Assembly: GCA_030654175.1 (NCBI GenBank)
Contig: JAURXZ010000016.1
Location: 62,001 to 126,000 of the forward strand
Source of the DNA: Bacteroidia bacterium
Lineage (GTDB): Bacteria > Bacteroidota > Bacteroidia > 2-12-FULL-35-15
Length of the DNA: 64,000 nt
Direction: 5' to 3'
Shown: positions 46,206-62,255 of the stretch, piece by piece
Position numbering within the stretch: position 1 is the first letter of the stretch
Layout: each line of letters begins with the position of its first letter
Notes under the pieces: generated by a model
Database searches by the model: none
What the model was told of the DNA's origin: nothing
The model's input: the letters and a program-made list of their open reading frames with translations, nothing else
Translations under genes and position numbers: made by a program

Positions 46206-46637
46206 ATGCAAAAATTGCCTTCCCTGTTTTTATTAATGATATTAATATTATTGGGCTTTAACAATAATGCCTTGGTAGCAAAACCTGAAAACAATAGCAC
46301 TTTTAAGGTCAAAATACAGGATCAAAAAGAAGCGAAAGGACAAACTTATATAATTATTGATAAGGGCAGTGTTACAGATATCCAGCCCTATATTGATGCC
46401 TTGAATAATTCTGACATGAGCAATCACCGACTGCTTAATAAGCGATATACAGTGGTTTTTAAAACCGGAGTTAAAGTGGAATTGTTTTCTGCCTCCGAAA
46501 TTTCGAAAAGTGGCCGTTTAATTATTTTATCTGACTATCTTGAAAATTTTGATGCCTCGCGCCAGGAGCCAATTTTTGCTTTAGGGGCTAATAATTTTAT
46601 AATTGAATATCATACGTCTTCTGCCAAGCATCACTAA
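46206..46637 (+). CDS. hypothetical secreted protein (143 aa)
   Basis: 143 aa with signal peptide ~1-25 (LPSLFLLMILILLGFNNNALVA). The mature part is ~118 residues of mixed alpha/beta character (KVKIQDQKEAKGQTYIIIDK, LNKRYTVVFKTGVKVELFSA, FALGANNFIIEYHTS), no Cys, no recognised domain. It lies 91 bp upstream of the giant adhesin-like gene in the same direction and is enclosed with it between ltaE and the ltaE remnant, so the two may have arrived and function together. The function is unknown. Confidence 0.65.
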   Translation: MQKLPSLFLLMILILLGFNNNALVAKPENNSTFKVKIQDQKEAKGQTYIIIDKGSVTDIQPYIDALNNSDMSNHRLLNKRYTVVFKTGVKVELFSASEISKSGRLIILSDYLENFDASRQEPIFALGANNFIIEYHTSSAKHH

Positions 46638-46728: not shown

Positions 46729-49700
46729 ATGAAAAAATTACTCTTTACCCTTATTTCATTAATTCTGCTTGTAAATTTCAATTTATTTGCCCAACCGGCT
46801 AATAATAATTGTAATACTGCTCAAAGTTTAGGGTCTTTACCTACAACCGGATCCTGCAGTGGTGGACTCCAAAATGGCGCACCTGTTACTGTTTCAGGAA
46901 CAACTATTGGAGCAACTGCTACAAACCCTGCTATTTCAATACTTAATTGCCAGAGCGGATCAGCCGATCAGGCGGCTCCTGCTCTTGATGTATGGTATTC
47001 TTTTGTTGCCACAGGAACAACAGTTAATGTAACTATTACACCCGGTACTCCGGCTCTAGCAACACCTAATATTGGTCTTTGGACAGGATCATGCTCTAAT
47101 TTACAGGCATGGGGATGCGGGATCGGAAACACAAGCGGAAATTTATCAGCTTCCTTTACTCAAATTGTTATTGGTCAAACCTATTATATACAGGTTAGTG
47201 GAAATAATTCTACCGGAAGTGGTAACTTCAATTTATCTGTAGATAATGATATCGATTGTAATAATTGTAATACTATTGCTTCTATAACTGCAAGCCCTAC
47301 TCCCATTTTAGGCGCCTATCTTCCCGGACAGGTTGTTACTTTTTGTTATACGGTTTCGGACTGGAGCCAGCAAAATACCAACTGGTTTCACGGGATACAG
47401 ATCTCCATGGGTGCAGGATGGACAGGGACAATCTCTGGTACTGTACCTGCTGCAACCTGTCAGAGTATTACCGGTTATGATGGGGCTTGGATCTACTCCA
47501 ATACGGGTTTAGGTACTACTTTCGGACCGGGCTTTTATTTCGAAACAGTTTCAGGAGCCACTGACGCATCAAACAACTTTGGGGACAATTGCAGTGGAGC
47601 AGGAAAAAGCTGGACCTTTTGCTGGAATTTAACGGTTGATCCCGGCTGCGCTGTGGGATCCGATCTGAGTGTAACAGTAAACACAAGTGGTGATGGGGAA
47701 TCCGGTTCATGGTACAGTACTGGTTGTACTGGCGATCCTGCATTAGTTTTGCCCGCCCAGGGCGCTTGTTGCCAACCAACCATGACCAGCAGCCCCACTT
47801 GTATTGGACAATCTACAGGTACCGCAACTGCTACACCGGTTGGAGCAGGAACCTTTACCTATTCATGGGCTCCTGGCGGACAATTAACACAAACCGCAAC
47901 AGGATTAGCTGCCGGAACTTATACAGTCACTCTTACCAATACAGCCACACTTTGTGCTATAACCAATACAGTAATAGTTTCCACTACTCCATTACCCGTA
48001 TCAAATGCAGGCGCAGACATTTCATTATGTTCCGGAATTTCAGGTTCACTGGGAGCTGCAGCTATTTTAGGAAATACCTATTTATGGACACCGGGTACAG
48101 GTTTAAGCAGCACTACTTCGGCAAATCCAACTGTAACATTAACAAATACAGGATCAACAACAATTACCAGCACCTATACAATTACAACAACTAACACTGC
48201 CACCGGTTGCGTATCAACCGATCAGGTTATCGTGTCTGTTAAACCATCACCTGTTCTGATAATACCGGCCAATATCAGTCAGTGTGCCGGAACAATAGTA
48301 GCTGCCACTGTATTATCCAGTACCCCTTTAGGTGCTTCATACACCTGGACAAATTCAAATACAGCAATAGGCCTTGCTGCAAGCGGTACAGGAAATGTAC
48401 CTTCATTTACATCTGCAAATACAACAACAAGCCCGATAACCGCTACAATCACCATTACACCAACACTTAACGGTTGTACAGGCCCTCCGGCAACATATAC
48501 GATCACTATTCAGCCTTCAGCAATTTCCACATTTACACAAAGCCCAAACCAGTGTTTGGCAGGTAATAGCTTCTCTTTTACAAATACAGGGTCCAGCGCT
48601 TCAGGCTATACCTTTTCCTGGAACTTTGGTGGTGGCGGAGCAAATCCGGCAACTTCGATATCTAATAATCAGGCCGGAGTTACTTATTCAAGTCCGGGAA
48701 CCTATTCAATTACCCATATTGTTACTTCTGCCGGTGGCTGTAGCTCCACCTCCACCTCTACTGTTACCATATATTCGACACCAACCGCCATTGTTACAAT
48801 TCCTGTAAGCGCTTCCTGTGGTTTAAACGATGGATCAGTCACACTCGGGGCTGTTACCGGAGGTACTGCCGGCTATACCTATTCTTTTAATGGAAGTGGA
48901 TTTACTTCTTCAACAAATTATACCGCTTTGGCCCCCGGAACTTATACTGTTATTGTAAAAGATGCTAATGGATGCACCTTTACCACCACTGTTACCATAA
49001 CCACTACGCCAGGTCCAACAGCTTTGGCAGTAACTACTGTAAATTCCACCTGCGGTGCATCCAATGGTGCTATTAATATTGGGGCGGTTACAGGAGGAGT
49101 GGGCCCTTATACCTATTCAGTAAATGGTAGCGCTTTTACCACCACAACGAGTTATACAGGCTTTGCTGCCGGAACATACACAGTTATTGTAAAAGAAACA
49201 CAAGGTTGCCCATTTTCTGTAACGGCTACTATTATTAATACTCCCGGGCCAACGGCCTTAGCGACTTCCACTATTAATTCTACCTGTGGTAATTCAAACG
49301 GTACTGTTAATATTGGTGCTGTTACCGGTGGTACGGCCACTTATGTTTATTCATTCAATGGAAGCGCCTTTTCCGCAACGGTGAGTTATACCGGCTTAGC
49401 ACCAGGCACTTATTCAACTATTGTAAAGGATGCCAATGGTTGTACCTATACCACTTCTTCTACTATTGCTAATACTCCGGGGCCCACAGCTTTAGCTGTT
49501 AGCAATGTTAATGCCACTTGTGGTAACTCCAACGGAATAATTAATATAGGCGCTGTAACTGGTGGTATTGGTCCATATACCTATTCAGTGAATGCAGGTG
49601 CATACAGTGCATCAACAAGTTACCCAGGCTATGCTGCAGGTACGTATACTGTTATAGTAAAAGATGCGAATGGTTGTACTTTCAGCAATACAGCTACTGT

Positions 49701-52700
49701 AGTTGATGTACCGGGACCTACTGCTATTGTTATAACCACCAATAATTCCAATTGTGGAGCAAGTAATGGAGATATTGATCTTGGCAGTGTTACCGGAGGT
49801 ACCCCTACATACACTTATTCTGTAAATGGAAGTTCTTTTGATGGAACAACAAACTATAATGGATTTTCGGAAGGCACATACACTGTTATAGTAAAAGATG
49901 CAAATGGTTGCACTTTCACTACCTCTGCCTTTGTAAGTAGTAATAGCGGCCCTACTGCACTAGCAGTAAGTTCAACAAATTCAACATGTGGCTCAAGCAA
50001 TGCAACTGTTACCATTGGCACTGTTACCGGTGGAACAGGTCCTTATACTTACTCCTTTGATGGAAGCGGATATACTGCTACATTAAATTACCCGGGTTTG
50101 CCTGCCGGAACATACAATGTTATTGTAAAAGATTTCAATGGTTGTACATTTGCAACCTCTGTAATTGTTACTAATTTCCCTGTGCCTACTGCACTTGCAG
50201 TTACTACCATCAACTCCACTTGTGGTGCCGCAAATGGTATAATTAATATCGGGACGGTTACCGGAGGGGCGGGACCTTTTACCTATTCTGTAGATGCAAG
50301 TGCTTTTTCTTCTGTTTTGGTCTATTCCGGTTTTTCTGCCGGCACCTATAATGTGATCGTAAAAGATTTCAATGGTTGTACCTTCAATACTACCGCTACC
50401 GTAGTTGATACTCCGGGACCTACTGCAATTGCAACAACTTTAACAAATACTACATGTGGTAATTCCATTGGATCTGTTGTTCTGGGAGCTGTTACCGGTG
50501 GTACCTCCTTATTTACTTATTCTTTCGATGCAAGTCCCTTCACTTCAACTACTGTTTATGCTTCCTTAGCAGCAGGCAGTTATTCAATTATTGTTAAAGA
50601 TAATAACGGATGTACCTTTACTACTTCAGCAACGCTAACCGACACACCGGGACCTACTGCCCTTGCAACCAGTATCACTAATACTACTTGTGGCAGCAGC
50701 AACGGAACTATCACCATTGGCGCCACTACAGGTGGTACTCCATCCTATACGTATTCATTCAATGGAGGGGGCTTTACTTCCACTTCCAGCTTTACCGGTT
50801 TGGCTGCAACTACTTATTCTGTTATAGTTAAAGATGCCAACGGATGTACATTTACTGTTAATCCTGTTATAATTAATACTCCCGGTCCCACTGCTTTAGC
50901 CACTTCAACAACAGATGCTTCTTGTGGGGCAAGCAATGGCTCCGTTACAATGGGTGCCACTACCGGAGGTACAGCTCCTTATACATACTCAGTAAATGGC
51001 AGTACTTTCACAAGTTCGACTCTTTACAATGGATTAGCTGCAAATACTTACCCTGTGATCGTTCAGGATGCTTTTGGCTGCTCATTTTCTACATCAGTCA
51101 CTATTAACGACCTGAGCGGATTAACCGCCTCCCTTACCGCTCAAACAAATGTTAGCTGCAAGGATGGGAATAATGGTAGCGTAACAATCACAGCCGGTGG
51201 TTCTACAGGACCATATAGCTATTCAATAGATGGAGGAGTTTTTGGACCTAGCGGAACCTTCAGTGGATTGACACAAGGAGTTTATGCAGTAATGGCAAAA
51301 GATGGCAATGGATGTACAGTTTCCATAACAATTACAATAACACAACCATCAGAACTTACAGGTGTTATCACTTTACAAACGGATGTTAATTGTTTCGGAG
51401 GAGACAATGGTGCAGTTGCCGTAACTGCAAGTGGCGGCACTATCGATTATACCTATTCAATAGATGGAGGTGTATTTGGAAGTAATCCTTCATTTACTAA
51501 TTTGCTTGCAGGATCTCATGCGGTGGTTATTAAAGATGCGAACGGATGTACTGTAAACGTTTCGGTTACCATCACTCAGCCAACGGCATTATTATTGTCA
51601 TCATCATCAACCAGTGCCACATGTACCGCATCAAATGGTTCTGCTACTATTGTTGCTTCGGGTGCAACACCGATCTATACTTATTTATGGACTCCGGGCG
51701 GACAAACAACTTCAACCTCAAATAACATAACTGCCGGGACCTATTCAGTTCTTGTTACAGATGCTAATGGGTGTGCGCAAACTGCACCTGTTGTTGTTGG
51801 TGTTAATTCTGGTGGAACAGCTTCCATTTCTGCAAGTAACAATGTAACATGTACAGGTGCTAATAATGGAAATGCAACTGTTTCAATGAGCACGGGAGCT
51901 ACGCCTCCTTATACTTATTCATGGATCCCTTCCGGCCAGGCCACAGTTACTGCCATCGGCCTCGCTCCGGGGCTGCAAACGGTTACAGTTACTGATGGGA
52001 ATGGCTGCATCGCCACAACCGGTATTGTTATTACAGAACCAATTATTATCTCTGCTTTATTTACAAATGTGCATCTTACATGTAACGGCCTGAATAATGG
52101 CTTGTCAACTGTTTATGCGATAGGGGGAACTGCTCCCTATACTTATTTATGGTCTCCAACATCACAAACTACCCAGACAGCCGGTGGTTTGACTGCCGGT
52201 ACATACACCTGCACCATTACTGATGCGAATGGTTGTACAAAAATGGAAACAACAAGTATTACCCAACCTGTGGCGATTGTATTAACCGAAACCCATGCTG
52301 ATGCTAATTGTAACCTTTCAAATGGTTCCGCTACAGTTTCGGCAACAGGAGGTGTTGGATCATATACCTTTTCATGGAGCACAGTTCCTGTTCAAACTAG
52401 TGCAACTGTAACAGGGCTTGCATCAAATACATATGTTGCAACAGTGACTGATTTAAACGGATGTTCTCAAAACATACCGGTTACGGTTAATAACCTCGCA
52501 GGGCCAATTGCTACTGTATTCAGTACTACAAATGTTGCCTGTAAAAACCAACATAATGGAAATGTGACGGTAACAGTTAGTGGCGGCACAAATCCTTATA
52601 CCTATTTATGGTCGGACGGTCAAACATTTCCAACTGCCACTAACCTCGCAGCAGGAACATTTACACTTACTGCAACAGATGTTAATGGCTGTGTTGCAAC

Positions 52701-55700
52701 AATTTCAGCTATCATCACAGAACCGTTAGCGCTTACAACCACAATTACATCTGCTAACCCGGTATGTTTTGGAGCTTCTAACGGAACAATTGCCTCTACT
52801 GTAAGCGGTGGAACAGGTGGATATTCATATTTGTGGTCGCCCGGTGGCGCAACTACAAGCACCATATCAGGACTTGCTGCCGGTGCCTATATTTTGCAGG
52901 TAACCGATGCAAACGGGTGTATTGCGGTTACAAACGTTACGCTCAATAATCCCCCTTTAATTGCAGCAAATACAACTACAACAAATGTTACCTGCAGCGG
53001 CTTATGCAATGGAACAGCAACCGTTAGTCTATCTTCAGGCACCGGCCCTATTACTTATTTATGGAATGATGTTAATGCCCAGGCCACTCCAACGGCCACC
53101 TCATTATGTGCCGGTACTTATACGGTAACAGCTATAGACGCTAATGGTTGCAGCGCAACCGCAACAGCCTCTATAACAAGTCCTGCTGCATTAACAGTTA
53201 ACATCAGCTCTTCAGGAAATGTGTCCTGTTATGGTGCCTGTGACGGATTCGCATTGGCAGCAGTAACTGGCGGTTCAGCTCCGTTCAGCTTTTTGTGGAA
53301 TCCCGGTGGAACATCAGGAGCTTCAGTAAATAACCTCTGTGCGAACACCTATACGGCTACTGTTACAGATGGTAATGGTTGCACTGCGACTGTTAACGTA
53401 GTTATCACTCAACCAAATCCATTTACTGCTACTATTAACAATACCAATGTATCCTGCTTTAATGCTTGTGATGCACAGGCAACTGCTGTTTATTCAGGAG
53501 GTACGGGGCCTTATACATTCATGTGGACACCTTCTTTACAAACCAATGCAATTGCTACTGGACTTTGTGCGGGCATCCAGAACCTAGAGATAACAGATTC
53601 CCATGGTTGTGCTGCCACCAATTCGGTAGTGATCACTGAACCAACACTTCTTGCTGTTTCTACTTCAACCAACGCGGATTGTGGAACAGCAAATGGAGCG
53701 GCATGCGCACAGGTCATCGGTGGTTTCCCTCCTTTTGTATATTTATGGAATGATCCGGCAATACAAACTACAAGTTGTGCTTCCGCTTTAAATGCAGGAG
53801 TTTATACCATTTCAATAACAGATGCCCATGGTTGCAGCATTACAAAAATTGCAAACGTAAATGATAATGATGCCCCAGTGGTCACAATACCTACCAGTAC
53901 AGATATTACATGCAATGGTGCAAATAATGGCAGTGCTCAGGGAAGTATTTTAGGGGGCATCCTGCCATACACTATCAACTGGGCTCCCGGTGGCATGAAC
54001 ACCACTTTTATAAATAACTTAGCGGGGGGGATTTATTCCCTTATCGTTACTGACTCAGTTGGCTGTACAGGATCTGCTTCCGTAACAATCAACGAGCCTG
54101 CACCTTTGAACACAGGTATCATATCATTTATAAATGCCAGTTGTAATTTATCCTGTGACGGATCTGCCACAGTACTTGCTAATGGAGGGAATGCACCATA
54201 CACCTACCTTTGGAATGATGTGGGAACACAAACTTCATCTACTGCCACAGGATTATGTGCTCAAAATTATTCAGTAACCACTACTGATGCAAAAGCTTGC
54301 ACAAGTATTTCCATTGCCGAAATACTACAGCCTGCCCCAATCAGCATCTCCCTTGTTTCTTTAACAAATGTAATATGCAATGGTGGTAATAATGGTCAGA
54401 TAACTATCAGTGCTACCGGTGGAACCCAGGGATATACTTTCTCATGGGTACCTTCGGTTGGATCAAGTTCAATGATTACAAACCTTTTTGCAGGTACTTA
54501 TCAGGTAACTGTTACGGACTTAAATGGCTGTTCCAAAACAGTAAGTTTTAACATACTTGAGCCTGCACCGTTGGTTTTAACGGCTAATTCAAATCCCAGC
54601 ACCTGTAGTAACCCCAATGGAAGTGCGGGAGTGAGTGTGACCGGTGGCATTGCTCCCTATAATTATTTATGGACTCCAACGGGATCAACCACTGCAATTA
54701 TTACAAATGTAATTGCGGGTACTTATAACGTAACAGTCACTGGTTTTAATGGTTGTATTGCAACAGGGAGTTCAACAATACTTGATCTTTCCGGACCATC
54801 AATAAATAGCATTTCATATACACAACCTATATGTAATGGTACTTCTACCGGCACTGCCACTGTTGTTGCCAGCGGAGGCCAGCCTCTCTATACGTATTCA
54901 TGGACCGGACCGGGTGCTCAGACATCACAAACAGCTTCTGCACTACCAGCCGGACCTTTTACTATTATCGTGAAGGACCAAAATAATTGTACTGCTACAG
55001 GATATATCTTAATTCCACAACCCACACCTGTTCAGGTTATTACAAGTCCAACTGATACGATCTGTATCGGACAACTTGGTCAGATATATGGTGCCGGATC
55101 TGGTGGAACTCCGCTTTATTCACCTAACGGACCACCAACTTATACATATTCATGGCTTCCTGCTTCTTTCGATACTACCGGAGGACCATTTCCTGTTACA
55201 CCAACAATTACTTCCACCTATACGGTTATTGCAACAGATTCTAACGGTTGTGCTTCGCCACCAACTATTACCACGGTATTCGTTAATCCTCAAATTGCAG
55301 TTACAGCAACAGATGTTTCTCTATGTAACGGGGATTCTGTATCTATCAATGCGACTGCAACTGGTGGTAATGGTGGACCATATACTTATTCCTGGAATAA
55401 TGGTTCATCCACACAATCACAAACGGTTTACCCTACTGCCGGTACTTCGGTAAATTATATTGTTACTGCTAACGATATTGGTTGTTCAATCGAAGTTACA
55501 GATACAGCAACTGTTATTATTAATCCGCTGGCAGTTTCATTTATGACTGTTCCTGATACAGCCGGCTGTGATGACTTTACAGCACAATTCACCGGGATCA
55601 GTAATATTGGAACTACTTATACCTGGAACTTTGGTGATGGAACATCTGTACAAACAGGTAATCCGCTCTCTCATACTTATGTAACACCGGGCATTTACGA

Positions 55701-56328
55701 TGTATCAGTTACCGTTACTACTGATTCGGGATGTGTTTCTATAATCACCACCAACCAGTTTATTGATGTTTACCCGTCTCCCACTGCAGGTTTTACTTCT
55801 TTGCCTTTACAGCCAACTACAATTGAACCATTGGTGACCTTTACGGATCAATCATTGGGAGCTTCAAATTGGTACTGGGATTTTATTTACAACATAGCTC
55901 CTGTGGGTTTATATACAGATACATTACAAAACCCGTCATTCTCATATCCTGATGTGGGTTCGTATATTGTGCAACAGGTGGTTCATAATAATTTTGGGTG
56001 CTACGATACGGCCTACAACACCGTTAAAGTTATTCCCGAATATATATTTTTCGCGCCAAATGCGTTTACTCCATCAGATCCTGATGGAATAAATGATCTT
56101 TTTTTGCCAAAAGGTGTTGGTATTGATCCTGATAATTTTAAAATGATGATCTTCGACCGTTGGGGTAATCTTATCTATGATACTACAGATCTGGCAAAAG
56201 GCTGGAATGGCAGAGCCAATGGCGGAAAAGATGTTGCTCAGATTGATGTGTATGTCTGGAAGATACTAACAAAAGACTACAAGGGAGGGCATCACTCTTA
56301 TGTTGGTACTGTTTCGATTGTAAAGTAA
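46729..56328 (+). CDS. giant SprB-repeat surface protein with gliding-associated (type IX secretion, B-type) C-terminal domain
   Basis: 3199 aa. Signal peptide ~1-22 (LISLILLVNFNLFAQ). A jelly-roll/pre-peptidase-like domain spans ~25-175. A second cysteine-containing domain spans ~180-350 (WFHGIQISMGAGW, KSWTFCWNLTVDPGC). Ig/PKD-like modules span ~350-680. An array of ten ~78-aa repeats of one type (~684-1460) carries (T/S)CG.SNG....GAVTGG, Y.YS(F/V)NGS, TY(T/S)VIVKDANGCTF. An array of about 17 SprB-type repeats follows (~1461-2768: CNG.NNG...V.A.GG, PYTYLWSPGG, TVTDANGC), then Ig-like and two PKD modules (WNFGDGT ~2960). The C-terminal gliding-associated domain (~3103-3199) has FAPNAFTPSDPDGINDLF and IFDRWGNLIYDT. 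Such proteins are exported by the type IX system and act as surface adhesins. It is visibly richer in G+C than its neighbours. No PorP/SprF partner gene lies beside it. Confidence 0.93.
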   Translation: MKKLLFTLISLILLVNFNLFAQPANNNCNTAQSLGSLPTTGSCSGGLQNGAPVTVSGTTIGATATNPAISILNCQSGSADQAAPALDVWYSFVATGTTVNVTITPGTPALATPNIGLWTGSCSNLQAWGCGIGNTSGNLSASFTQIVIGQTYYIQVSGNNSTGSGNFNLSVDNDIDCNNCNTIASITASPTPILGAYLPGQVVTFCYTVSDWSQQNTNWFHGIQISMGAGWTGTISGTVPAATCQSITGYDGAWIYSNTGLGTTFGPGFYFETVSGATDASNNFGDNCSGAGKSWTFCWNLTVDPGCAVGSDLSVTVNTSGDGESGSWYSTGCTGDPALVLPAQGACCQPTMTSSPTCIGQSTGTATATPVGAGTFTYSWAPGGQLTQTATGLAAGTYTVTLTNTATLCAITNTVIVSTTPLPVSNAGADISLCSGISGSLGAAAILGNTYLWTPGTGLSSTTSANPTVTLTNTGSTTITSTYTITTTNTATGCVSTDQVIVSVKPSPVLIIPANISQCAGTIVAATVLSSTPLGASYTWTNSNTAIGLAASGTGNVPSFTSANTTTSPITATITITPTLNGCTGPPATYTITIQPSAISTFTQSPNQCLAGNSFSFTNTGSSASGYTFSWNFGGGGANPATSISNNQAGVTYSSPGTYSITHIVTSAGGCSSTSTSTVTIYSTPTAIVTIPVSASCGLNDGSVTLGAVTGGTAGYTYSFNGSGFTSSTNYTALAPGTYTVIVKDANGCTFTTTVTITTTPGPTALAVTTVNSTCGASNGAINIGAVTGGVGPYTYSVNGSAFTTTTSYTGFAAGTYTVIVKETQGCPFSVTATIINTPGPTALATSTINSTCGNSNGTVNIGAVTGGTATYVYSFNGSAFSATVSYTGLAPGTYSTIVKDANGCTYTTSSTIANTPGPTALAVSNVNATCGNSNGIINIGAVTGGIGPYTYSVNAGAYSASTSYPGYAAGTYTVIVKDANGCTFSNTATVVDVPGPTAIVITTNNSNCGASNGDIDLGSVTGGTPTYTYSVNGSSFDGTTNYNGFSEGTYTVIVKDANGCTFTTSAFVSSNSGPTALAVSSTNSTCGSSNATVTIGTVTGGTGPYTYSFDGSGYTATLNYPGLPAGTYNVIVKDFNGCTFATSVIVTNFPVPTALAVTTINSTCGAANGIINIGTVTGGAGPFTYSVDASAFSSVLVYSGFSAGTYNVIVKDFNGCTFNTTATVVDTPGPTAIATTLTNTTCGNSIGSVVLGAVTGGTSLFTYSFDASPFTSTTVYASLAAGSYSIIVKDNNGCTFTTSATLTDTPGPTALATSITNTTCGSSNGTITIGATTGGTPSYTYSFNGGGFTSTSSFTGLAATTYSVIVKDANGCTFTVNPVIINTPGPTALATSTTDASCGASNGSVTMGATTGGTAPYTYSVNGSTFTSSTLYNGLAANTYPVIVQDAFGCSFSTSVTINDLSGLTASLTAQTNVSCKDGNNGSVTITAGGSTGPYSYSIDGGVFGPSGTFSGLTQGVYAVMAKDGNGCTVSITITITQPSELTGVITLQTDVNCFGGDNGAVAVTASGGTIDYTYSIDGGVFGSNPSFTNLLAGSHAVVIKDANGCTVNVSVTITQPTALLLSSSSTSATCTASNGSATIVASGATPIYTYLWTPGGQTTSTSNNITAGTYSVLVTDANGCAQTAPVVVGVNSGGTASISASNNVTCTGANNGNATVSMSTGATPPYTYSWIPSGQATVTAIGLAPGLQTVTVTDGNGCIATTGIVITEPIIISALFTNVHLTCNGLNNGLSTVYAIGGTAPYTYLWSPTSQTTQTAGGLTAGTYTCTITDANGCTKMETTSITQPVAIVLTETHADANCNLSNGSATVSATGGVGSYTFSWSTVPVQTSATVTGLASNTYVATVTDLNGCSQNIPVTVNNLAGPIATVFSTTNVACKNQHNGNVTVTVSGGTNPYTYLWSDGQTFPTATNLAAGTFTLTATDVNGCVATISAIITEPLALTTTITSANPVCFGASNGTIASTVSGGTGGYSYLWSPGGATTSTISGLAAGAYILQVTDANGCIAVTNVTLNNPPLIAANTTTTNVTCSGLCNGTATVSLSSGTGPITYLWNDVNAQATPTATSLCAGTYTVTAIDANGCSATATASITSPAALTVNISSSGNVSCYGACDGFALAAVTGGSAPFSFLWNPGGTSGASVNNLCANTYTATVTDGNGCTATVNVVITQPNPFTATINNTNVSCFNACDAQATAVYSGGTGPYTFMWTPSLQTNAIATGLCAGIQNLEITDSHGCAATNSVVITEPTLLAVSTSTNADCGTANGAACAQVIGGFPPFVYLWNDPAIQTTSCASALNAGVYTISITDAHGCSITKIANVNDNDAPVVTIPTSTDITCNGANNGSAQGSILGGILPYTINWAPGGMNTTFINNLAGGIYSLIVTDSVGCTGSASVTINEPAPLNTGIISFINASCNLSCDGSATVLANGGNAPYTYLWNDVGTQTSSTATGLCAQNYSVTTTDAKACTSISIAEILQPAPISISLVSLTNVICNGGNNGQITISATGGTQGYTFSWVPSVGSSSMITNLFAGTYQVTVTDLNGCSKTVSFNILEPAPLVLTANSNPSTCSNPNGSAGVSVTGGIAPYNYLWTPTGSTTAIITNVIAGTYNVTVTGFNGCIATGSSTILDLSGPSINSISYTQPICNGTSTGTATVVASGGQPLYTYSWTGPGAQTSQTASALPAGPFTIIVKDQNNCTATGYILIPQPTPVQVITSPTDTICIGQLGQIYGAGSGGTPLYSPNGPPTYTYSWLPASFDTTGGPFPVTPTITSTYTVIATDSNGCASPPTITTVFVNPQIAVTATDVSLCNGDSVSINATATGGNGGPYTYSWNNGSSTQSQTVYPTAGTSVNYIVTANDIGCSIEVTDTATVIINPLAVSFMTVPDTAGCDDFTAQFTGISNIGTTYTWNFGDGTSVQTGNPLSHTYVTPGIYDVSVTVTTDSGCVSIITTNQFIDVYPSPTAGFTSLPLQPTTIEPLVTFTDQSLGASNWYWDFIYNIAPVGLYTDTLQNPSFSYPDVGSYIVQQVVHNNFGCYDTAYNTVKVIPEYIFFAPNAFTPSDPDGINDLFLPKGVGIDPDNFKMMIFDRWGNLIYDTTDLAKGWNGRANGGKDVAQIDVYVWKILTKDYKGGHHSYVGTVSIVK

Positions 56329-61454: not shown

Positions 61455-62255
61455 ATGAAAATTACAATTGTAGGCTGTGGTAATATGGGATTGATATATG
61501 CCCGTGCATTCCTTAAATATAATATTGTTTCGAAAGAAAATTTATTGCTTGCCGAAAAAAACGAGACCAGAAAACAGGAATTACTAAAACTCAATGTTGG
61601 TGAAGTAACTGTTGTGAATGACCCTAAAATTGCTGAAAGCGATATTATCATTATTGCCGTGAAGCCACAGGATTTTGATGAACTTGCAACAGAATTAAAA
61701 CCCATTTTACATTCCGCAAAATGTATTATTTCCATTATGGCCGGAATGAAATTAACAAGAATAGAAGCAGCTTTAAATAATTCAAATATTATACGTGCAA
61801 TGCCTAATTCTCCTGCTGAATTAGGAATGGGAATGACCGCTTTTACGGCAAATAAAGCCGTACCTATTGAACAAATCAGAAAAGCAGAAAATTTATTAGG
61901 AACAACAGGCAGGTGTGTATTTCTTGAAAATGAAGACCTTTTAGATGCTGTTACTGCATTGAGCGGTAGCGGACCTGCTTATTTCTTTTATGTTGTTAAA
62001 CACATGATAGAAGCCGGAAAAGAAATGGGATTTGATGAAGCTACTTCCGCAATGTTTGTAAAACAAACCATGTTGGGTTCTTTCCATTTAATCAATAACG
62101 CCAATAAATCACTGGATGAATTAATAAAAGCGGTGGCTTCAAAAGGAGGAACTACGGAAGCTGCACTTACTATTTTTAATGAGGCTCAAGTTGGAGAAAA
62201 TATTCAGAAAGGTATTGTTAAGGCGAGAGATAGGAGTGTTGAGTTATCGCGGTAA
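61455..62255 (+). CDS. proC: pyrroline-5-carboxylate reductase
   Basis: 266 aa. An N-terminal Rossmann motif ITIVGCGNMGLIYARAFLK binds NAD(P)H. IIAVKPQDFDEL and IIRAMPNSPAELGMGMTAF are family blocks. ALSGSGPAYFFYVVKHMIEA and KAVASKGGTTEAALTIF mark the C-terminal dimerisation and active-site helices. It reduces 1-pyrroline-5-carboxylate to L-proline, the last step of proline synthesis. The length is typical. It has an unusual hairpin in its leader. Confidence 0.95.
   Translation: MKITIVGCGNMGLIYARAFLKYNIVSKENLLLAEKNETRKQELLKLNVGEVTVVNDPKIAESDIIIIAVKPQDFDELATELKPILHSAKCIISIMAGMKLTRIEAALNNSNIIRAMPNSPAELGMGMTAFTANKAVPIEQIRKAENLLGTTGRCVFLENEDLLDAVTALSGSGPAYFFYVVKHMIEAGKEMGFDEATSAMFVKQTMLGSFHLINNANKSLDELIKAVASKGGTTEAALTIFNEAQVGENIQKGIVKARDRSVELSR

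Follow-up and report, generated by a model that had tools for sequence, protein, structure and literature searches.

The 64,000-nucleotide stretch analysed here (the window: positions 62,001 to 126,000 of contig JAURXZ010000016.1, assembly GCA_030654175.1, from a Bacteroidia bacterium) contains a giant gene, located at 46729-56328, that encodes a protein built of SprB repeats. These repeats form two neighbouring blocks. The second block (units U11 to U27) is frozen, unit number and order being fixed among the relatives compared, and the block in front of it (array 1, units U01 to U10) differs in length from one relative to another. We consider it likely that the protein is a type IX-secreted, C-terminally anchored SprB-repeat adhesin, in which a fixed cell-proximal rod is followed by an adjustable segment and a tip.

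Profile searches recovered the SprB family (PF13573) in 28 stretches of the 3199-amino-acid (aa) protein (532.8 bits, cut-off 28, E 3e-164), and 27 consecutive units were delimited over residues 685-2767 (48781-55029). An initial annotation of this DNA had described ten repeats of about 78 aa followed by about 17 SprB-type repeats between 48779 and 55030, with a switch near residue 1461. This holds for the repeats themselves, as U01 to U10 are exactly 78 aa long and are followed by 17 SprB-type units of 75-78 aa; the switch is of the kind described and was placed at residue 1465, but the protein is wider than the span given. The annotation had overlooked a unit at residues 347-424, two degenerate units after U27 and the 78-aa length of U11 and U12. 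The first of these, U00, has a position common to the relatives G012, G008b, G016a and G002a (0.72-0.83). Units U01-U10 carry CG...YS(F/V); U11 and U12 carry YSIDGG, as had been noted for the first two units of the second array, and U13-U27 have a W near the place of that motif. Array 1 is indeed the more uniform, with a mean aa identity of 0.578 versus 0.372 within U13-U27, and 0.320 was obtained between U01-U10 and U13-U27.

The two arrays are distinct and are not mixed at random in unit trees, where array 1 forms one clade (support 99/100). A tree of 56 rows was built from the units of the window protein and its G012 orthologue: the four unit labels need 3 changes on it, with a mean of 21.7 after shuffling, and every unit of U11-U27 pairs with the same-slot unit of the other species. 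An assembly artefact is unlikely because exact direct repeats in the gene reach 23 bp at most and G012 has nearly the same 30-unit spacing. Tandem Repeats Finder detected no array within the open reading frame (ORF).

To compare the blocks, relatives were collected through the C-terminal 427 residues, which yielded many more matches than the N-terminal domain (see below); the collection comprised one genome per species, and array length was compared between species and paralogues. Sixteen relatives with more than 56% C-terminal identity were kept; G044 (55%) was dropped before counts were made, as was the fragment G008b|L030|1, the tail of G008a. Contig starts cut G009b, G018, G048, G002b and G044. 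The U11-U27 block, anchored at the unit after U27, was aligned gap-free with the 16 relatives, and 17 units with a spacing of 75-78 aa were found in 16/16. Mean identity was 0.641 in register and 0.371-0.406 when the blocks were shifted by 1-3 units, and the own slot was the best match for 258 of the 272 units of the frozen block. The U11-U12 pair had been regarded as a hybrid junction between the two arrays. This was ruled out by the presence of U11 and U12 in the same slots of relatives lacking array 1 and by the unit tree, in which they group beside array 1 (92/91). When both units were divided into segments, five of six were nearer to array 1 (three of U11, two of U12), the first third of U12 being slightly nearer to the second array (0.322 vs 0.292).

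The frozen block also displays a cysteine pattern that is fixed by slot. Cysteines at unit columns 13 and 65 are near universal, and an extra pair is found at columns 17/51 in U19, U20, U21 and U24 and at columns 22/46 in U22, each in 16/16 relatives. This results in the code '........EEEe.E...', the core EEEe.E being present in all 16; a further extra pair (E) occurs in slot U18 in 8/16 relatives and in slot U17 in 1/16. Among 193 non-redundant units of the family, C51 is present in 31 of the 33 units with C17 and in 0 of the 160 without it, and C22 and C46 occur together in 3/3. The same association was seen in 394 units from 24 further loci, where C17 and C51 are both present in 203 units, out of 205 with C17 and 207 with C51; the loci were picked among 395 genomes of the class by a search model that itself includes these cysteines, which biases the frequency of EEEe.E among them. 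Extra pairs are uncommon in 196 non-redundant units from other proteins of the window's genome, where C17 and C51 nonetheless occur together in 5/6. The simplest reading is that the extra pairs correspond to a predicted second disulfide at fixed places.

Array 1 had been proposed as a place of length variation, and such variation was found between relatives. Complete arrays comprise 10 units in five proteins (the window protein, G012, G009a, G043a and G008a), 20 in G016b and 30 in G043b; the array runs into the contig start in G009b and G018, and G002b, which starts at U11, is uninformative on this point. Array 1 is missing in seven relatives (G008b, G016a, G002a, G041, G048, G049 and G005), and the unit that precedes U11 there falls in the sister clade of array 1 (support for the two together 99/96; 97 in a second tree). 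One sister-type unit is found in six of these seven relatives and two in G008b, G048 being cut at its start. In nine array-1 proteins, the final units group together as one clade (86). Mapped on the frozen-block tree, the front array requires a minimum of 3 changes and the N-terminal type (the window's or another) requires 1, G002b being left out of both counts and G009b, G018 and G048 out of that for the N-terminal type. Judged from these relationships, array 1 probably arose by amplification of a single unit in the slot just before the rod.

All seven complete arrays have lengths that are multiples of ten (10, 20 and 30; L053, L059 and the window). A five-unit higher-order repeat in the window's array 1 was rejected, as the p value of 0.0064 for lag 5 alone became 0.147 after correction for lags 1-7. 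A core swap was apparent in array-1 units: F or Y is found at column 50 in 0/43 units with F at column 36 and in 30/50 units with V at column 36, these counts being made on 100 units of seven proteins, which are not independent.

Export of the protein by the type IX system, as suggested in the initial annotation, is in line with a CHU_C domain (PF13585) at its C-terminus (39.5 bits, cut-off 27) and with the SprA translocon encoded in the genome (2611 bits), which also has 23 PorP/SprF-type matches. Type B C-terminal domains have been suggested from pull-downs, in excerpts of PMC9143113, to be held by PorP/SprF-like barrels of the outer membrane, and the same excerpts place sprF beside sprB; for SprB, an extract of PMC12635249 describes anchoring by SprF and movement along the cell. 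With anchoring through a type B C-terminal domain, U11-U27 would therefore be cell-proximal and the N-terminal domain would form the tip. In AlphaFold2 models, U10-U13 and U19-U22 consist of all-strand, beta-sandwich-like units (mean pLDDT 93.4 and 86.3, respectively).

From these data, the protein would be held to the outer membrane by its C-terminus after type IX secretion, and U11-U27 would constitute a fixed cell-proximal rod, presumably stiff and specific, where every unit keeps a position of its own and certain positions carry an extra cysteine pair likely to form a disulfide. Array 1 would be the adjustable segment between rod and tip; its growth from a single unit, in that direction, is the course suggested by the trees, and its length would set the reach of the N-terminal tip, which may bind a surface. 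The product of orf143, a small gene upstream, may be secreted and work with the tip. Of this scheme, the fixed order, the cysteine pattern, the copy numbers and the sister relation of array 1 to the unit before U11 are known from sequence.

Several observations weigh against this scheme. U26 is unaligned by identity in 5/16 relatives, and U17 and U27 in one each. Paralogues of the same genome mostly lack extra cysteine pairs, and EEEe.E was found in only 5 of the 24 further loci across the class (two belonging to a second protein family of the genus, the other three to the bacterial families f37, f8 and f23, with one locus each), most others differing. The case for growth from one unit to many comes from single-unit trees of 76 columns, and the basal place of U10 in one unit tree was not recovered in the second. 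Regarding secretion and anchoring, the NCBIfam type B sorting model TIGR04131 scores 34.2 bits, just under its cut-off of 35; all 23 PorP_SprF matches lie on contigs other than that of the window (C21), and the one near full-length GldJ match (440.9 bits) is just below the cut-off of 458.2. U22 is weaker in the U19-U22 model, with a pLDDT mostly of 57-79 per block. Finally, own-slot best matches in array 1 number only 3/10 between the window and each of G009a, G043a and G008a, the order being partly kept.

The uniformity of array 1 had been attributed to more recent amplification, and it could be that unequal recombination produced the array recently in this strain and that its length still changes, as in Periscope proteins. 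Its higher uniformity in protein sequence and its different lengths among relatives are compatible with this, as are two younger events, namely the duplication of a five-unit block in G043b (0.815 base identity) and the homogenisation of units 2, 4 and 7 in G012 (0.768 vs 0.667 in the window). However, array-1 units of the window share on average 0.62 of their bases (maximum 0.684), and exact repeats in the gene do not exceed the length given above. At identical residues, codon agreement inside array 1 is 0.441, versus 0.396 expected from codon usage, and reaches 0.550 when the window and G012 are compared slot by slot; within U13-U27 it is 0.385 (0.394 expected). Calculated with each gene's own codon usage, the silent-site excess is 0.074 inside array 1 versus 0.253 between the same slots of the two species, silent sites within the array being near saturation. 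Such a low agreement inside the array, compared with that between species, indicates that its units had largely diverged before the window and G012 species split. Moreover, slot order is partly shared with four relatives: in 10/10 pairs of the five proteins with ten units, identity is higher between same slots than between different ones (at most 4 of 2000 shuffles were as high), and own-slot best matches are 8/10 between the window and G012. An excess in all pairs, with few best matches on the diagonal outside the G012 comparison, suggests that the ten-unit order is old, yet kept less strictly than that of the frozen block. A recent origin of array 1 in this strain is thus decidedly unlikely. 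It may also be asked whether anything special has to be explained, given that old repeat proteins keep their unit order and that the two arrays might only reflect two neutral duplication ages. Divergence without further duplication can alone yield a fixed order, and the genome holds many SprB-repeat ORFs. We nevertheless regard this as unlikely, since the neighbouring block of these proteins has changed in number and kind while the 17-unit block retained its unit number in 16/16 relatives, and since the cysteine pairs remain slot-fixed while slot identity drops to about 0.4-0.6, also outside the window's family.

The GhpA hooks of Aureispira are multimers, and the window protein might likewise be one subunit of such a hook instead of a gliding or attachment adhesin. 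GhpA fragments were the best Foldseek matches in the Protein Data Bank (PDB) for both models (E 5.3e-11 and 2.2e-11), and VIA-align to GhpA gave a Z of 11.0 with an rmsd of 6.2 over 283 residues. A fibronectin fragment tied with it, however (Z 10.6), and the match may reflect a mere common Ig/FN3-like arrangement; in addition, GhpA did not appear at an E value of up to 0.1 in profile searches against PDB sequences, where relatives were either lacking or weak (Hoc, phage decoration or neck proteins). A hook subunit is therefore very unlikely in our opinion, and we retain the anchored adhesin with a fixed rod and an adjustable segment.

The N-terminal domain and orf143 were examined across the genus. 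When residues 1-345 were searched in 36 genomes, four close matches besides the window (70-77% identity) and 25 weaker ones were obtained; this region has no Pfam or NCBIfam family above cut-off, the weak GBD_T9SS_assoc match reaching 15.3 vs 27 bits. In the same genomes, orf143, whose product has no family match above cut-off, gave 18 matches, every one of which (18/18) is immediately followed, in the same orientation, by a gene whose product has a related N-terminal domain. Some of these downstream genes encode proteins of about 1530 aa in which SprB units are few (six in G023, L034). Twelve of the 30 N-terminal matches, all with at most 46% identity, had no detected orf143. Array-1 proteins whose N-termini are of another type (G009a, G043a, G043b, G008a and G016b) had no orf143 match in the 1.1-2.6 kb examined upstream, and from this distribution orf143 seems to go with the tip, not with the array. 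Of seven flanking proteins in the window, orf143 was the only one matched in the relatives' stretches. The layout of the locus is given below.

Features of the giant adhesin gene and of orf143 (window coordinates)
Feature	Position	Strand	Remark
orf143, small protein with signal-peptide-like start	46206..46637	+	91 bp upstream of the giant gene
Giant adhesin gene	46729..56328	+	ORF of 3199 aa
Signal-peptide-like start (judged by eye) and N-terminal, presumed tip, domain, residues 1-345	46729..47763	+	
U00, lone W-type SprB unit, residues 347-424	47767..48000	+	
Linker with PKD-like domains, residues 425-684	48001..48780	+	
Array 1 (variable block), U01-U10, residues 685-1464	48781..51120	+	Ten units, each exactly 78 aa
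U10, last unit of array 1	50887..51120	+	
U11-U12 (YSIDGG), opening pair of the frozen block	51121..51588	+	Each 78 aa
U13-U27, W-type units of the frozen block	51589..55029	+	
U19, U20, U21, extra cysteine pair at columns 17/51	52960..53649	+	16/16 relatives
U22, different extra cysteine pair at columns 22/46	53650..53874	+	16/16 relatives
U24, extra cysteine pair at columns 17/51	54106..54339	+	16/16 relatives
Two degenerate SprB/PKD-like units, residues 2768-2925	55030..55503	+	After U27
PKD domain, stretch of best score, residues 2950-3004	55576..55740	+	
CHU_C type IX (type B) secretion signal domain, residues 3109-3183	56053..56277	+	

Other giants of the same genome were also inspected. 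Contig C34 carries several (C34:239402-284989 and C34:502320-508247; L037, L038, L039, L047, L062 and L064), of which the five that were whole in the stretches compared have 18, 18, 18, 34 and 42 units. Those of 34 and 42 units resemble the 18-unit plan with extra copies of a two-unit block (slots 4-5) and of a four-unit block (slots 6-9), the order being kept in the first slots and in slots 10-17; the most divergent of the three 18-unit giants is a poorer fit. Given these added inner copies with kept ends, fixed ends and growable inner blocks may be a common plan in these proteins. Another paralogue, L046 on contig C16, has a different order of extra cysteine pairs ('.EEE.EE...'). On contig C40, an array of about 20 units with an exact spacing of 81 aa begins at the contig edge (L044:1-6059), and its adjacent units share 0.60-0.82 of their bases over the first 19 pairs. 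An SprB-array frame is open at one end of each of the contigs C21, C34, C40 and C44. A break of C34 and C40 inside one near-identical array found no support, because the C40 pairs are only 0.60-0.82 alike and the end pieces compared in one orientation (the last 20-127 bases of C34, the first 77 and 127 of C40) had no exact cross-match.

The window protein resembles SprB of Flavobacterium johnsoniae in its SprB repeats, its type B C-terminal domain and its giant size. It differs from SprB, a protein of 669 kDa according to an excerpt of PMC9143113, by its length of 3199 aa and by a contig devoid of a PorP/SprF match; its two arrays with different evolution and its slot-fixed cysteines also set it apart, at the level of the general features compared. 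Periscope proteins (SasG, Rib, Sgo_0707 and CdrA) likewise have a stalk of tandem folded domains in varying number, which would set the reach of the N-terminus. They rest, as stated in an extract of PMC8201768, on long and highly similar DNA repeats, which are lacking in the window gene with its lower base identity in array 1; in the window family, only one of two blocks varies, and it does so between species or paralogues. The resemblance to GhpA of Aureispira sp. CCB-QB1 (PDB 9fly, 9flw and 9fls), which provides the nearest solved structures by Foldseek, is a match of fold only. Among the matches listed in a literature search, titles and abstract openings contained nothing on a fixed unit order or cysteine pattern in SprB repeats. 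The parts are thus of known kinds, and their split into a frozen, cysteine-coded block and a growable one in SprB-repeat proteins was not found in this printed material.

A wider and more tentative proposal, which we put forward as a possibility, is that the cell-proximal blocks of SprB giants are defined parts, not spacers. The block would be a 17-domain rod, conserved in several families of the class, with its own interfaces for each slot and a fixed disulfide pattern (EEEe.E), and its role might lie in lateral packing or force transmission; a founder slot at its outer end would serve as a length dial, and a tip would be swapped along with the small secreted partner that belongs to it.

Giant adhesins built of repeats are often regarded as interchangeable stalks. 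In the present family, positional constraint and growth are split within each protein, and the uniformity of an array is no proof of its recent amplification. This makes it testable which parts must keep their order and which set length; it also provides predicted disulfides, and it points to a small protein linked to one type of tip.

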